A stretch of 64,000 nucleotides of DNA from Clostridia bacterium (lineage in GTDB: Bacteria > Bacillota > Clostridia > Oscillospirales > Butyricicoccaceae): assembly GCA_017441945.1 (NCBI GenBank), contig JAFSBG010000067.1:1-64000 (forward strand), given 5' to 3'. Shown piece by piece: positions 2,391-52,432 of this stretch; positions within the stretch are counted from its first letter, which is position 1; every line of letters begins with the position of its first letter. Below the pieces are notes generated by a model. That model was not told the origin of the DNA. It saw only the letters and a list, made by a program, of their open reading frames with translations, and made no database searches. The translations under genes were made by a program, and so were the position numbers.

Positions 2391-2398
2391 AATGTTTT

Positions 2399-2452
2399 CT
2401 CTCCCTCGGTCTTGCTGCGCAAGCCAGCTCCCTCGTCAGAGGGAGCCGAGAA
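2399..2452. repeat. Dispersed CTCCCTC...GGGAGCC repeat
   Basis: A modular element: CTCCCTCGGTC, a small hairpin (CTTGC-TGC-GCAAG), then AGCTCCCTCGTCAGAGGGAGCC, itself a hairpin. Related copies or fragments lie at about 15763, 32050, 38047, 38458, 43564 and 63975. Confidence 0.75.
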
Positions 2453-20448: not shown

Positions 20449-20533
20449 GTCATTCCGAAGCAAGGCGAGGAATCTCCTAACTTTTGCACCTTTCAGTGTC
20501 ACATGGAGTTTCTGTCGCTACGCTTAGGACGAC
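20449..20533. repeat. GTCATTCCGA repeat, left of the GIY-YIG gene
   Basis: Starts GTCATTCCGAAGCAAGGCG with GAGGAATCTCC and ends GGACGAC, a divergent copy of the family with GTCATYCTGA-like termini. It lies immediately downstream of the GIY-YIG gene and in the same orientation as the copy on its other side. Confidence 0.7.
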
Positions 20534-20536
20534 ATA

Positions 20537-20818
20537 TCATTTAATATATTCAGCAAGATCACACCATGATGGATTTTTACTTTCCACGAGTATATTTTTC
20601 TTTTCCCTGCGCATACCTTTTATCTGCTTTTCGCGTTCAATGGCGCTTATTGCATCATCTGTATGCTCAAAATACACCAATTTATTTACATTATAGGTTT
20701 TTGTGAAGCCACTCACCAGTTTATTTTTGTGTTCATATACTCGTCTTTCAAGGTTATTTGTAACACCGGTATATAACACATTTCCACGCTGATTTGTCAT
20801 CATATAAACATAGTACAT
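20537..20818 (-). CDS. Small GIY-YIG nuclease-domain protein, intact copy
   Basis: 93 residues consisting only of a GIY-YIG (UPF0213-like) domain: YYVYMMTN and VLYTGVTNNLERRVYEHK form the YVY..YTG core with the catalytic arginine, and AIEREKQIKGMRREK carries the catalytic glutamate. Such proteins are predicted DNA endonucleases whose cellular role is unclear. Both sides are bordered by copies of the GTCATTCTGA-type repeat. A second copy at 40.2-40.4 kb, also repeat-bordered, carries a nonsense codon. Confidence 0.85.
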   Translation of the reverse strand: MYYVYMMTNQRGNVLYTGVTNNLERRVYEHKNKLVSGFTKTYNVNKLVYFEHTDDAISAIEREKQIKGMRREKKNILVESKNPSWCDLAEYIK

Positions 20819-20837: not shown

Positions 20838-20923
20838 GTCACTCCGAAGCAAAGCGAGGAATCTCCTCATTTTTTGAAGATTTACTAAATCGGACGAGAT
20901 CCTTCACATCCGTTCAGGATGAC
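20838..20923. repeat. GTCATTCTGA-family repeat, right of the GIY-YIG gene
   Basis: Runs from GTCACTCCGAAGCAAAGCG through GAGGAATCTCC and GAGATCCTTCACATCCG to TTCAGGATGAC. It is in the same orientation as the copy at 20449-20533, and shares its variant wording (GAAGCAA, GGAATCTCC), which differs from the copies at 40 kb. Confidence 0.75.
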
Positions 20924-32039: not shown

Positions 32040-32185
32040 CGGCAGTTCTCTCCCTCCTCAGAGGGAGGCAGGGAGATTGTGCAATAGTGGGAGATTCTTC
32101 GGCTTTGAATCAGAATGACAAGAAGATTTACAACCCCTCCACCATTGTTCCAATGGTCCCCCTCCCCTTGCACAGGGGAGGCACA
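32040..32185. repeat. Composite of three dispersed repeats
   Basis: From left to right: a CTCCCTCCTCAGAGGGAG hairpin unit; a truncated inverted GTCATTCTGA element (GAGATTCTTCGG..CAGAATGAC, about 32089-32122); and a CCCCTCCACCATTG..CAATGGTCCCC unit with CCTTGCACAGGGGAGGC. The 31951-32248 gap holds no gene that I can support. Confidence 0.7.
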
Positions 32186-35954: not shown

Positions 35955-36184
35955 ATAACGGGCGGGCGTGGAAACCCGCCCCTACGTTTTTTATGTCATT
36001 CTGAACGAAGTGAAGAATCTTTCCATGAATGAAGCACAGGATGTAGAGATGGGAAAGATCTTTCGGGCTATGCCCTCAGGATGACATATAGATTCGGGAG
36101 GGGTGACCCCTCCCCTACGGGATTTAGTATATACAACCCCTCCGTTTTTGTAAACAAAAACACCTCCCCTTGCACAGGGGAGGC
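35955..36184. repeat. Composite of dispersed repeats before aspS
   Basis: A GGGCGGGCGTGG..CCGCCCCTAC unit (about 35960-35985), a full GTCATTCTGA..TCAGGATGAC element (35995-36085), GGGAGGGGTGACCCCTCCCC, and an ACCCCTCCG..CCTTGCACAGGGGAGGC unit (to 36182). No gene is supported here. Confidence 0.75.
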
Positions 36185-36204: not shown

Positions 36205-38001
36205 TTATTCAGCTTTTTCCTTTACAGGGAGGTCAACCTTAATACAAAGTTCACGAAGCTGCTTTTCTTCTACTTCGGATGGGCAGGAAGTCATAACTTC
36301 GGAAGCAGTCTGGATCTTTGGGAATGCGATTGAATCGCGGATGTCTTCTGTGCCTGCAAGGAGCATTACGATACGGTCGAAGCCGTAAGCAATACCGCCG
36401 TGAGGAGGAGCGCCGAACTTGAATGCTTCGATCATGTGGCCGAAACGAGCAAGTGTGTCCTCTGTTGTGAAGCCGAGGCAGTTGAACATCTTCTGCTGAA
36501 CTTCAGGGTCGTGGATTCTGATAGAGCCGCCGCCCATTTCATAGCCGTTACATACGATGTCGTATGCCTTAGCCATCATCTTTTCAGGCGCTGTTTCAAA
36601 GAGTGGAATATCCTCGTCGCGTGGAGCTGTAAATGGGTGGTGCTTTGCATAGAAGCGTTCTACACCGTCATCATCTTCGCCCTTTTCAAGGAGTGGGAAG
36701 TCTGTAACCCAGAGGAACTTGAAGTCATCAGGATTGATGAGCTTCTGACGGCGTGCAACTTCGCATCTCAAGGCGCCGAGAGCTGTCTGAGCTGTTTCTG
36801 TATCTTCGTGAGCGATGATAGCGAGAAGGTCGCCTTCCTTGATATTCATGCGCTCATAAATAGCTGTCATAATTTCAGCAGGCATATTCTTTGCAAAGGA
36901 GGAAGTTACGCCGTCCTTTGTAACCTTTGCCCATGCAAGACCCTTAGCGCGGTATGTCTTGACATATTCGCCGAGAGAGTCGATTTCCTTACGGCTCATC
37001 TTGCCGCCGACTTCATTGAAGTTGATAGCGTGAACAGAACCGCCGTTTTCGATAGCTGCTACGAATGGTGTAAAGCCACTATCCTTTACGAGGTCAGAAA
37101 TGTCGCGAAGCTCAAAACCAAAGCGCATATCAGGCTTATCGGAGCCGAAACGGCTCATTGCTTCAGCATAAGTGAGGCGCATGATAGGAGTTTCAACGTC
37201 AACACCGCGGAGCTCCTTGAAGATCTTCTTGATGAAGCCTTCCTGGATTGCCATGATGTCTTCCATATCTACGAAGGACATTTCAAGGTCGATCTGTGTG
37301 AACTCAGGCTGACGGTCTGCACGAAGGTCTTCGTCGCGGAAGCAGCGTGCAATCTGCATATAGCGGTCAACACCACTGAGCATAAGCATCTGCTTATACT
37401 GCTGTGGGGACTGTGGGAGAGCGTAGAAAGAGCCTGGGTGAACACGGGAAGGAACGAGATAGTCGCGTGCGCCTTCCGGTGTGGACTTTGTGAGCATTGG
37501 TGTTTCAATTTCCCAGAAGCCCTGTTCTGTAAAGTAGCTGCGTGTTACCTGAGCTGCCTTGTGGCGGATCTCCATAATTCTCTGGAGAGATGGACGGCGA
37601 AGGTCGAGATAACGATACTTGAGGCGGAGCATTTCATTTGTATTGATGTTGTCGTTTACCTCAAATGGAGGTGTTTCAGCCTTTGTGAAAACTGTGAGGT
37701 TTTCAGCAAGGATCTCGATCTTACCTGTTGGGATGTTAGGGTTGATGGAAGAACGCATACGGACTGTGCCTTCGATAGCAACTACCCATTCCATACGCAT
37801 ATCTTCAGCACGGAGAGCGAGGTCTGCGTCAACAGCCTGGTCGAAAACGCACTGGACGATACCTGTGCGGTCGCGCATATCTGTGAAGATAAGGCTGCCG
37901 AGGTTACGGTTACGTGCAACCCAGCCGTAAACGGTGACTTTTTCACCGATATTCTCCTCACGGAGTGTGCCGCAGTAGCGGCGGTTTGTACAATTATTCA
38001 T
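36205..38001 (-). CDS. aspS: Aspartyl-tRNA synthetase
   Basis: 598 residues, bacterial type. An N-terminal OB-fold anticodon domain (about 1-110: VTVYGWVARNRNLGSLIFTDMRDRTG), class-II motif 2 ARCFRDEDLRADRQPEFTQ (about 215), a GAD insertion (about 285-420) and motif 3 GIAYGFDRIVMLLAG near 545. It charges tRNA-Asp; discriminating or non-discriminating specificity is not settled by sight. The ATG at 37999-38001 follows AAGAGGAG; an upstream in-frame extension is rejected. Confidence 0.96.
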   Translation of the reverse strand: MNNCTNRRYCGTLREENIGEKVTVYGWVARNRNLGSLIFTDMRDRTGIVQCVFDQAVDADLALRAEDMRMEWVVAIEGTVRMRSSINPNIPTGKIEILAENLTVFTKAETPPFEVNDNINTNEMLRLKYRYLDLRRPSLQRIMEIRHKAAQVTRSYFTEQGFWEIETPMLTKSTPEGARDYLVPSRVHPGSFYALPQSPQQYKQMLMLSGVDRYMQIARCFRDEDLRADRQPEFTQIDLEMSFVDMEDIMAIQEGFIKKIFKELRGVDVETPIMRLTYAEAMSRFGSDKPDMRFGFELRDISDLVKDSGFTPFVAAIENGGSVHAINFNEVGGKMSRKEIDSLGEYVKTYRAKGLAWAKVTKDGVTSSFAKNMPAEIMTAIYERMNIKEGDLLAIIAHEDTETAQTALGALRCEVARRQKLINPDDFKFLWVTDFPLLEKGEDDDGVERFYAKHHPFTAPRDEDIPLFETAPEKMMAKAYDIVCNGYEMGGGSIRIHDPEVQQKMFNCLGFTTEDTLARFGHMIEAFKFGAPPHGGIAYGFDRIVMLLAGTEDIRDSIAFPKIQTASEVMTSCPSEVEEKQLRELCIKVDLPVKEKAE

Positions 38002-38046
38002 ATAAATAACTCCTCTTAAAAAGTGGATTTTACAATGATATATGAC

Positions 38047-38096
38047 CGCCCTCTGAGGAGGGAGGTGGCTCACCGAAGGTGAGTCGGAGGGAGAGA
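38047..38096. repeat. CTCCCTCC repeat forming the end of the DUF559 frame
   Basis: CCCTCTGAGGAGGGAGG and CTCACCGAAGGTGAG hairpins. The final codons and stop of the DUF559 pseudogene lie inside this element. Confidence 0.7.
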
Positions 38097-38441
38097 ATTT
38101 TTAACAAGAGAGTCTATAAATTCGCACACCCCATTGAAATTTTTATCAATATCGGAATTGGGGATACGGAAGAGTCTGAGTCCCGTTGCTTTCAATTCTT
38201 TAGTACGCAGAGCATCAGCTTTTTCTGATTTATCAGAAAAATGATAGCCTCCATCGAGTTCAATAATAAGCTTTGCTTTTGAACAGTAAAAATCCACGAT
38301 ATAATTACCGAGAACTTTTTGTCTGTTCCAACGAACGGGGTAACTTCGTAGAAACTGATACCAAAGCTTGTTTTCCTATGGTGTCATATTTTTTCGAAGT
38401 TCTTTTGCTAAAGGGACATTTGATTTGTTGTATTCTTTCAT
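38070..38441 (-). pseudogene. DUF559 endonuclease-like gene with an amber codon
   Basis: The frame begins MKEYNKSNVPLAKELRKNMT at 38441, then P and an in-frame TAG at codon 22 (38376-38378), then continues ENKLWYQFLRSYPVRWNRQK, VLGNYIVDFYCSKAKLIIEL and DGGYHF. This matches the DUF559 (VSR/restriction-endonuclease-fold) family; relatives have glutamine or tryptophan at the stop position, so one base change explains it. The residues IELDGGYH and the LRLFRIPN segment are kept. Its C-terminus runs into a dispersed repeat. It is probably a recent pseudogene; sequencing error is possible. Confidence 0.8.
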
Positions 38442-38455
38442 AATGTTTACCTTCT

Positions 38456-38508
38456 ACCCCTCAGTCAAGCTTACGCTTGCCAGCTCCCCTCTCAAGGGGA
38501 GCTATTAT
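38456..38508. repeat. CCCTCAGTC repeat beside the DUF559 gene
   Basis: CCCCTCAGTCAAGCTTACGC with a AAGCTTACGCTTG hairpin, then CCAGCTCCCCTCTCAAGGGGAGC. Together with the element at 38047 it brackets the broken DUF559 gene. Confidence 0.7.
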
Positions 38509-40070: not shown

Positions 40071-40161
40071 GTCATTCTGAACGAAGTGAAGAATCTTTCC
40101 ATAAATGAAGCACAAACTACAGAGTTGGGAAAGATCCTTCGGACTGTGCTCTCAGGATGAC
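40071..40161. repeat. GTCATTCTGA...TCAGGATGAC repeat, left of the broken GIY-YIG gene
   Basis: A full ~91-bp element: GTCATTCTGAACGAAGTGAA, GAATCTTTCC, AAAGATCCTTCGGACTG and CTCAGGATGAC. The termini are imperfect inverted repeats. Confidence 0.85.
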
Positions 40162-40167
40162 AGAAGT

Positions 40168-40446
40168 TTAGAGCGTTTCATATAAGTCGTTCCATTCGGG
40201 ATTCATGGATTCGACCAATGCATTCTTTTTTGAACGCAACAGCCCTTTAATTTGCTTTTCGCGTGTTATAGCACTTGTGACATCAGGTGTATGTTCAAAA
40301 TATACCAACTTATTAAGATTATATTTTGAGGAAAAGCCTTTTACAAGCTTGTGCTTGTGTTCATAAATACGTCTGACAAGATCATTTGTGACACCGGTGT
40401 AGAGCACACGATTATTTCAGTTTGTAATCATATAGATGTAGTACAT
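40168..40446 (-). pseudogene. GIY-YIG nuclease-domain gene with an opal codon
   Basis: The frame starts MYYIYMITN at 40446, hits TGA at codon 10 (40417-40419) and continues NNRVLYTGVTNDLVRRIYEH, then EKQIKGLLRSKKNALVESMN. Relatives often have tryptophan (TGG) at the stop position, so a TGG-to-TGA change is likely. A shorter protein from a GTG could exist but would lack the first core strand. It is homologous to the intact copy at 20537 and, like it, is flanked by GTCATTCTGA-type repeats. Confidence 0.85.
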
Positions 40447-40502: not shown

Positions 40503-40593
40503 GTCATTCTGAACGAAGTGAAGAATCTTTCCATAAATGGAGTACAGACTACAGATTCAGGAAAGATCCTTCGGGCTGTGCCCTCAGGATGAC
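40503..40593. repeat. GTCATTCTGA...TCAGGATGAC repeat, second at this locus
   Basis: Full element, nearly identical to the one at 40071 (GAACGAAGTGAAGAATC, then AAAGATCCTTCGGGCTG). Confidence 0.85.
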
Positions 40594-40624: not shown

Positions 40625-40716
40625 TGTCATTCTGAGCGAAGCGAAGAATCTTTCTATAAATGAAGCACAAGCTACAGAGTTGGGAAAGATCCTTCGGACT
40701 ATGCCCTCAGGATGAC
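40625..40716. repeat. GTCATTCTGA...TCAGGATGAC repeat, third at this locus
   Basis: Full element (GAGCGAAGCGAAGAATC variant), ending just after the recF stop. All copies around the broken GIY-YIG gene share one orientation. Confidence 0.85.
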
Positions 40717-43561: not shown

Positions 43562-43614
43562 TTGGCTCCCTCAGACGAGGGAGCTGGCTTTGCGAAGCAA
43601 AGACTGAGGGAGTG
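43562..43614. repeat. CTCCCTCAGACGAGGGAG repeat
   Basis: GGCTCCCTCAGACGAGGGAG, then CTGGCTTTGCGAAGCAAAG and ACTGAGGGAG, inverted relative to the copy at 2399. Confidence 0.75.
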
Positions 43615-44364: not shown

Positions 44365-44422
44365 TCTGTTGCCTCCCTTGTGTAAAGGGAGGGGGACCGC
44401 CGATAGGTGGTGGAGGGATTGT
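44365..44422. repeat. GCCTCCCTTGTG repeat inside the cob operon
   Basis: GTTGCCTCCCTTGTGTAAAG with GGAGGGGGACCGCCGATAGG and TGGTGGAGGG; an inverted copy of the element family at 32131 and 58042. It separates cobU from the rest of the operon. Confidence 0.7.
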
Positions 44423-52214: not shown

Positions 52215-52432
52215 AGCTAAATTCGCAGGGAAATTTTAGCCCCCTTTGATTCAAGGGGGTGCCCCAACGGGGCGGGGGGATTATTGTAGGGGCGGTGCCT
52301 CTGTGCCCGCCCGCGAGGAAAGTTATAGTGAATAGTTGTGTTGCCTGCGGCGCATTAAATAGGGCGGAATGTCGAGGGCGCCATTCCCTACAGGAAAAGT
52401 TAAATAGCCTCCCCTTGCACAGGGGAGGTTAA
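52215..52432. repeat. Composite of several GC-rich repeats
   Basis: GGGGGTGCCCCAACGGGGCGGGG, TAGGGGCGGTGCCTCTGTGCC with CGCCCGCGAGG, AATAGGGCGGAATGTCGAGG with GCGCCATTCCCTACAGG, and CCTCCCCTTGCACAGGGGAGG. No gene is supported in the 52187-52442 gap. Confidence 0.7.

Follow-up and report, generated by a model that had tools for sequence, protein, structure and literature searches.

DUF559 nuclease genes of Clostridia are framed by inverted C-rich hairpin repeats whose subfamily follows that of the nuclease

Introduction

Bacterial genomes commonly contain interspersed palindromic repeats. In the REPIN/RAYT system such repeats (REPs) are found together with REP-associated tyrosine transposases (Bertels and Rainey 2011, PMC3116915, in the sections consulted). 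The window analysed here is a stretch of 64,000 nucleotides (G000:C55:1-64000) from a draft Clostridia genome of 2.26 Mb in 184 contigs, and it contains an interrupted gene for a small DUF559 nuclease located between two C-rich hairpin repeats. The question raised by this locus is whether the nuclease and the repeats belong together and, if so, what the one does for the other. An earlier reading made from the sequence alone (the sequence-only reading) had claimed that the broken gene lies between two repeats of the CTCCCTC type, and that its last codons are inside one of them, and had suggested that each small nuclease family goes with its own repeat family, in parallel to the pairing of GIY-YIG with another type of repeat.

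Results

The DUF559 gene of the window and its two repeats

The window gene is read in frame from an ATG at 38441 to a stop codon at 38070-38072, and the PF04480 profile matches it at 38411-38112 on the minus strand with 95.5 bits against a cut-off of 20.6. A single in-frame TAG, whose position was read by eye as 38376-38378, falls within the DUF559 match. An uninterrupted DUF559 copy was observed at the corresponding place in a congener (locus L040). Both repeats have the same layout, in which a C-rich hairpin (hp1) and a brief linker are followed by another hairpin (hp2) and a tail of purines (Table 1). The repeats at this locus and at L002 were recognised by eye from this hairpin anatomy. 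A double-hairpin descriptor matched the right copy at 38452-38501 and did not match the left copy, in which the outer arm is degenerate, and the automatic inverted-repeat test described below gives the locus a score of 20, under the threshold of 29.

The first two claims of the sequence-only reading hold. The broken gene does lie between two repeats, and these are more than similar, as they are inverted (left copy on the plus strand, right copy on the minus strand) with their tails toward the gene. The left copy contains the final eight codons (SLPPTHLR) and the stop codon. The gene is reversed relative to its own X and Y ends, and with this reversal and one in-frame TAG the window copy is a decayed element. 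The sole Rfam match, to a CRISPR direct repeat at 37939-37973 on the minus strand inside the neighbouring gene, is sub-threshold (21.3 bits, gathering 40) and was taken as chance.

Table 1. Features of the window (positions 1 to 64,000)
Positions	Strand	Feature	Basis
2397..2445	-	gene-less double-hairpin repeat	descriptor
20561..20818	-	small GIY-YIG gene, no internal stop; flanking repeats of the GTCATTCCGA/GTCACTCCGA type at about 20449-20534 and 20838-20923	
32127..32181	-	gene-less double-hairpin repeat	descriptor
36130..36183	-	gene-less double-hairpin repeat, in general type like the pair at the DUF559 gene	descriptor
38046..38096	+	type X repeat copy: hp1 CCCTC-loop-GAGGGAGG, GTGGC, hp2 TCACCGAAGGTGA, tail GGAGGGAGAGA	read by eye
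38070..38441	-	DUF559 (PD-(D/E)XK, Vsr/EDxHD-like) nuclease gene, subfamily c33	reading frames and profile match
38454..38503	-	type Y repeat copy, upstream of the start codon: hp1 AGCTCCCCTTGAGAGGGGAGCT, hp2 CAAGCGTAAGCTTG, tail GACTGAGGGG	by eye and descriptor
40071..40161	+	GTCATTCTGA...TCAGGATGAC repeat beside the GIY-YIG gene; more copies at 40503-40593 and 40626-40716	
40192..40446	-	small GIY-YIG gene with one in-frame TGA, between GTCATTCTGA-type repeats	
43566..43612	+	gene-less double-hairpin repeat	descriptor
44373..44391	+	hp1 of subtype B (CTCCCTTGTGTAAAGGGAG), gene-less X repeat, c27 subtype	repeat B listing
52240..52287	+	gene-less double-hairpin repeat	descriptor

Framing of DUF559 genes in the genome and its relatives

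All four DUF559 matches in the window genome were read by eye as framed by inverted repeats, and in the automatic test two of the other three pass (L001 with 41 and L004 with 52) and L002 fails with 24. DUF559 is patchily distributed among the relatives, being present in 21/87 genomes of the family and 75/245 of the order with at most seven copies per genome. A total of 129 loci with strong matches were examined across these genomes, where weak or partial matches were left out (6 with E > 1e-8 in the family search and 20 with E > 1e-12 in the order search). In the inverted-repeat test the upstream flank is locally aligned to the reverse complement of the downstream flank and the bar is the best of 378 shuffles. 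By this score, which was defined after the family loci had been viewed, an inverted pair lies above the bar in 79 of the 123 loci with flanks of at least 150 nt and in 4 of 60 control ORFs of the window (scores 36, 34, 30 and 30). The 44 loci that have no strong inverted pair include the window locus and L002.

With a descriptor that, like the one for the GTC tag used below, was written after most flanks had been viewed and so is not blind (nine unseen GIY-YIG loci excepted), a C-rich hairpin was observed within 200 nt of 118/124 DUF559 genes on at least one side and of 76/124 on both sides, compared with 1/97 stretches taken 800 nt off and 0/124 shuffles. Because the genome is rich in repeats, the window's own ORFs are the fairest background, and there the hairpin occurs within 200 nt on at least one side of 12/59 ORFs and on both sides of 2/59. 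Chance proximity in a repeat-dense genome is rejected by these controls and by those of the inverted-repeat test. A stricter earlier descriptor found the double hairpin on both sides of 55/124 DUF559 loci and on either side of 0/12 GIY-YIG loci.

The repeats also take part in the gene. The upstream tail lies 4-9 nt ahead of a start codon in 24/33 loci of subfamily c27, 11/17 of c33 and 6/8 of c38, and it probably supplies the ribosome-binding sequence. At the other end, the C-terminus SLSQLR, which was noticed in 8 of the 45 DUF559 proteins listed, is encoded by the downstream repeat. As the starts follow the upstream tail and some C-termini are repeat-encoded, the repeats form the boundaries of the gene. 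Subfamily c24 shows no framing pair in the inverted-repeat test and several of its loci have repeats only downstream. For example, in L096, L102 and L111 a repeat pair was seen downstream and none upstream, which is a different arrangement of gene and repeats. A further arrangement was noticed in subfamily c3 (L063, L068, L079 and L101), where it is hp1 that is turned toward the gene, with the tail motif on the outside, the opposite of the other subfamilies read.

Three genomes of the genus (G000, the window genome, G070 and G071) differ in whether the element is present at L002, L003, L031 and L041. Where an allele lacks the element, the intergenic DNA has diverged too far for target-site duplications to be read, and some of these alleles hold other repeats or possible remnants. 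Repeat-rich genomes with no DUF559 match were also found, such as G054 with 13 copies of repeat B and G246 with 27.

GIY-YIG genes lie beside a different class of repeat

The small GIY-YIG genes serve as the comparison. Twenty of 21 loci in the relatives were usable, and a GTC-tagged repeat was found within 200 nt in all twenty, on both sides in 12, where the C-rich hairpin was found in none; nor was the hairpin found within 200 nt of the 12 small GIY-YIG genes in plasmid records. Conversely, the GTC tag occurs at 6/124 DUF559 loci, fewer than in the shuffled flanks (15/124). When relatives and plasmid records are taken together, the C-rich hairpin is present on at least one side of 118/124 and 10/10 DUF559 loci versus 0/20 and 0/12 GIY-YIG loci (Fisher p=1.6e-28), and GTC-tagged repeats at 20/20 and 8/12 GIY-YIG loci versus 6/124 and 2/10 DUF559 loci (p=2e-20), values that overstate independence as the loci are related to one another. 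The enrichment proposed in the sequence-only reading, of DUF559 genes beside C-rich repeats and of GIY-YIG genes beside the other type with little cross-over, was therefore observed in this comparison, and the outcome that nuclease families have no preferential repeat partner did not arise.

The 12 GIY-YIG loci from named plasmid records, eight of which were tagged by script, come from hosts that include Azospirillum lipoferum, Novosphingobium aromaticivorans, Rhizobium, Shinella and Neorhizobium. Four of them (L347, L349, L351 and L356) were read by eye as fitting the description of CGTC-tagged REPs, with a CGTC, TGTC or CCTC tag, a stem of 8-9 bp starting with AT, a loop of 4-5 nt and a CCA tail. 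The CCA tail is missing in L357, and L350 and L355 have no clear repeat pair. In A. lipoferum, CGTCATCCCCGCGAAGGCGGGGATCCAG lies beside the GIY-YIG gene. The GTCATTCTGA repeats of the window match the description loosely.

According to the sections consulted of a 2013 survey, REPs form two super-families, and an enzyme, the RAYT, is proposed for the GTAG one only; those sections report no dedicated transposase for the CGTC-tagged REPs, the hosts of which include A. lipoferum, N. aromaticivorans and S. meliloti (Di Nocera et al. 2013, PMC3733652). Several of the alphaproteobacterial GIY-YIG repeats fit these REPs, sharing the tag, the AT-start stems, the short loops and the CCA tail. The difference is that a small GIY-YIG nuclease is here the usual neighbour of repeats for which the consulted part of that survey gives no transposase.

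Repeat subfamily tracks nuclease subfamily

The pairing extends below the level of the nuclease family. Clustering places FSRQKVLG-type nucleases with repeat CTCCCTTGTGTAAAGGGAG and tail GGAGGGATTGT, TPWERKLWY-type nucleases (the subfamily of the window gene) with repeat CTCCCTCTGACGAGGGAG and tail GGAGGGAGAGA, KIYKQRIIGRF-type nucleases with repeat CTCTCCCTTTGGGAGAG, TVNRQKVIG-type nucleases with repeat CCTTCCCCTTGAGGGGAAGG and tail GGATGAGGTG, and DFDRQKIIG-type nucleases with repeat CCCCTCCNNGGAGGGG and tail GGGGTGGTT. For 81 loci, which give 3132 pairs across genera, repeat similarity rises with nuclease similarity (Spearman 0.58, 0/500 permutations), and the correlation is 0.57 among pairs from different families. 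The same repeat was observed in 88% of pairs with a nuclease similarity of at least 0.75 and in 0.5% of pairs below 0.45. Host phylogeny as the source of the pairing is rejected by the correlation across families and by the presence of several subfamilies in one genome. The hp1 sequences of the left and right ends of one locus also match beyond a within-subfamily permutation (77 loci, 0/1000).

The contrast can also be made within a genome, for the 44 loci whose genome holds a second framed locus. In 31 of these the repeat of the nearest foreign nuclease is the best match, above the sets of the own genome, and 13 loci speak against the pairing by matching another repeat of their own genome better. 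Seven of the 13 have a nearest foreign nuclease below 0.67 similarity and three (L031, L106 and L117) lose to a locus of the same subfamily; neither circumstance accounts for L012, L052 and L091. The last claim of the sequence-only reading, a repeat family for each small nuclease family, thus turned out to be even sharper than proposed, as each nuclease subfamily has a repeat subfamily of its own, even within a single genome. That reading named neither REPIN/RAYT as the nearest analogue nor the inverted arrangement of a left and a right end.

Since jointly inherited pairs inflate such figures, repeats elsewhere in the genome were counted as well. Repeat B is present in 19/20 genomes with a c27 nuclease versus 36/225 without, and after two copies per gene are subtracted it is still found in 16/20 of the c27 genomes (Fisher p=5e-9). 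Repeat C is present in 6/7 genomes with a c38 nuclease versus 5/238 without, and beyond the flanks in 3/7 (Fisher p=8e-4).

The DUF559 enzyme

A structure model of an intact relative (L142, pLDDT 90.7) has as its best solved matches NGO0050 (3hrl), which is endonuclease-like, and the homing endonuclease I-Bth0305I (3r3p), with Vsr (1vsr, 1cw0) a far weaker match. Residues D40, E51, D53 and H57 of the conserved acidic core are invariant in 24 diverse DUF559 sequences. The median dN/dS (omega) is 0.13 for c27, 0.10 for c33 and 0.06 for c38, based on 66, 11 and 8 non-independent pairs. A stop codon falls within the matched domain in 5/129 loci, the window locus included. The nuclease therefore appears to be kept by purifying selection.

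DUF559 genes and C-rich repeats in other phyla and in Escherichia coli

A search at phylum level gave 4/299 genomes at E 1e-18, the window's own included, and because of this the taxonomic breadth was drawn from named records and a named collection. The plasmid records examined, 10 of 39 with DUF559 and 12 of 33 with GIY-YIG, were picked for taxonomic spread with their flanks unseen, and two further E. coli records are not counted among them. All ten DUF559 loci have a C-rich hairpin within 200 nt, nine on both sides; they come from Deinococcus (three records), Sphingomonas, Synechocystis, Qipengyuania, Sinorhizobium, Photobacterium, Pseudanabaena and Azospirillum. The loci taken from the named collection are the best 80 of 543 and partly overlap the order genomes, so that the count of 43/76 obtained there is not independent. 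DUF559 genes with inverted repeats around them were also found in Bifidobacterium biavatii and in a Saccharibacteria genome. The B. biavatii locus (L157) encodes an actinobacterial DUF559 protein near the window subfamily, with 56% identity to L040, inside a long inverted pair and is a candidate for transfer between phyla.

At the E. coli DUF559 gene, which was read in two strains, inverted C-rich repeats lie downstream and none upstream. We take this gene to be ycjD, presumably next to fabI with sapF also at the site, and the C-rich repeats to be Box C. A Box C repeat was originally noted close to fabI/envM. With one mismatch allowed, the pattern CCTCACCCYRRCCCTCTCCC has 32 matches in strain H240 and 14 in KE47, and the reversed control gave 0. 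A yihS-yihR query that includes the repeat is covered by at least 80% in 2326/5426 E. coli genomes, K-12 DHB4 among them. The alleles of O157:H7 F8797 and of MB30 have no repeat at yihS-yihR, with a diverged junction and ambiguous ends. This shows that a C-rich repeat has been gained or lost within one species, and it does not indicate the agent of the movement. At the nrdA-nrdB intergenic site (L412 vs L391), H240 has a C-rich hairpin repeat and K-12 GM4792 a longer REP cluster, which looks like BIME-type REPs, as if unrelated repeat families compete for sites.

Gene-less copies and the anatomy of the pair

Among the places listed for repeat B, plus/minus pairs about 100-120 nt apart are frequent. 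Twenty stretches (L326-L345) were fetched, mostly for being listed as such pairs, and 17 of them yield 18 typable pairs. Of these pairs 17 combine an X with an inverted Y, whichever of the two comes first; the exception is L345. In ten pairs read by script the centre is 23-65 nt long, and by eye shorter centres were seen, as in L341. The centres are mostly unrelated, as only 2 of the 45 comparisons among the ten align, both inside G043. In that genome, L327 (G043:C41:3500-4100) holds two near-identical X-Y pairs in tandem with like flanks, which suggests that a pair was duplicated with its adjacent DNA. In the gene-bearing c27 and c33 loci with both ends typed, X lies upstream and Y downstream in 29 versus 3 of the reverse kind, to which the window copy belongs.

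Three gene-less pairs are predicted to fold as cloverleaves in single-stranded DNA (z of -12.1, -8.8 and -9.7). In the predicted fold the two hp1 are base-paired to one another, the paired tails lie inside and the hp2 form side arms, and this arrangement is complete in L334 and partial in the other two. Over 11 typed copies the sequence of hp2 varies and yet stays complementary, so that structure, beyond sequence alone, seems to be kept.

These observations bear on whether the nuclease moves the repeats or only uses them. If X-Y pairs pre-exist and are moved by other means, DUF559 could be a homing endonuclease that cuts the centre of a pair of its own subtype and copies itself in. The presence of I-Bth0305I among the closest characterised folds agrees with such a role, as does the fact that gene-bearing and gene-less elements share their ends and differ in their centres; the largely unrelated centres, however, show no fixed site at which the cut would be made. 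The orientation data can be read both ways, since the gene does occur in both orientations relative to X and Y but with a strong bias. Furthermore, homing alone need not yield a repeat abundance that follows the nuclease subfamily across genomes. We consider homing unlikely.

Alternatively, an unrelated transposase could move the repeats and the nuclease could be cargo or a gene at an insertion hot spot. The repeats are dense around the window's ORFs, though on both sides of very few of them, and a match to the Y1 transposase, the family that was searched for, is present in 8 of 12 repeat-rich genomes. No match was found in the other four, which are drafts in which genes can be missed, and a C-rich hairpin was found at 0/7 Y1 transposase loci checked, three of the seven being weak matches. 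These two results also disfavour a RAYT as the mobiliser. A passenger would not be expected to show a subfamily-specific pairing or to lack cross-over with the GIY-YIG loci, and this explanation is very improbable to us. A repair or structure-specific nuclease (Vsr-like or cruciform-resolving) whose gene is kept near repeats to control their instability, without mobilising them, would suit the weakly Vsr-like fold and the junction-like predicted cloverleaves, but the patchy presence, the several subfamilies per genome and the spread over families and phyla look mobile and each gene is accompanied by its own ends, and we give this housekeeping role equally little credence.

Discussion

The explanation that we favour, and hold to be fairly probable, is that the repeats which frame the DUF559 gene are maintained or spread by this nuclease as their cognate enzyme, and that the gene and its two inverted ends are one element; the movement and the cleavage are what we infer. 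The observations behind it are the framing, the subtype pairing, the asymmetric ends, the predicted cloverleaf, the purifying selection and a patchy presence that differs between congeners. On the other side stand the loci that have no strong inverted pair, the downstream-only repeats of several c24 loci and of the E. coli gene, the 13 contrary loci of the within-genome contrast, the repeat-rich genomes with no DUF559 match and the interpretation of a Caulobacter DUF559 protein as a Vsr-like mismatch nuclease (PMC12907096). The element would consist of a left end (X), the nuclease ORF and a right end (Y), and its gene-less copies, in which X and inverted Y enclose a short and mostly unrelated centre, are dispersed through genomes in the manner of REPINs. 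The nuclease may bind the hairpin or junction of its own subtype, either in single-stranded form or as a cruciform that is extruded during replication or repair, and may then nick or cut the folded end. The cut intermediate would be copied or recombined into new sites. In this way the gene would mobilise its own ends in cis and the gene-less pairs in trans. This is the role proposed for RAYT transposases towards REPINs, here with a Vsr/EDxHD-type nuclease in place of the HUH tyrosine transposase.

The architecture would thus be a known one, like that of REPIN/RAYT, served by new and unrelated enzymes. REPIN/RAYT, as described in the consulted sections of Bertels and Rainey (2011, PMC3116915), and the DUF559 system both have an enzyme gene with dispersed palindromic repeats of its own on its flanks, inverted doublets that lack the gene and have a poorly conserved spacer, enzyme and repeat types that co-vary, and hairpin or clover folds. 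They differ in the enzyme, which is a HUH/Y1 transposase in REPIN/RAYT and a PD-(D/E)XK nuclease here, and in the repeats, where the GTAG tag of the former contrasts with C-rich double hairpins that have GGAGGGA-type tails and, by reading, no GTAG. In addition, the left and right ends of the DUF559 system differ, and several subfamilies and copies can share one genome. The EDxHD homing endonuclease I-Bth0305I and, weakly, Vsr are alike in fold, but DUF559 genes are framed by repeats, and the loci that were read show no intron or intein host. MITEs are similar in that they are short, non-autonomous and bounded by inverted ends, and have a relative that bears the gene. The DUF559 ends differ in being structured double hairpins, and no target-site duplication could be read from the diverged alleles compared. 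A literature search outside subscription journals and preprints, by titles and the openings of abstracts, gave no paper recognised as linking DUF559 or GIY-YIG to REP-type repeats.

A wider reading, to which we give about an even chance, is that two unrelated families of small nucleases each serve a separate and widespread superfamily of REP-like repeats, where DUF559 is the dedicated enzyme of the C-rich hairpin repeats and GIY-YIG that of the CGTC/GTCATT-tagged REPs. As part of this reading, the C-rich class would span the window's CTCCCTC type, the proteobacterial CCTCACCCTAACCCTCTCCC type, E. coli copies included, and the cyanobacterial CCCCCTAGCCCCCCAATT type. If the two-family reading is true, at least three independent enzyme chemistries drive short bacterial interspersed repeats, each with co-divergence of enzyme and repeat.

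If so, the question of what spreads the CGTC-tagged REPs would become directly testable, and a domain of unknown function would gain a role. DUF559 proteins that have been taken as Vsr repair enzymes may then need a second look, for example VsrA of Caulobacter, a DUF559 protein that in the consulted part of the report is regarded by its authors as a Vsr-like mismatch repair nuclease (PMC12907096). The pairs of nuclease and repeat subtype are ready sets for learning how small nucleases recognise DNA hairpins. Furthermore, E. coli is a laboratory model, and a K-12 strain with the C-rich copy at yihS-yihR opens the question to standard genetics.
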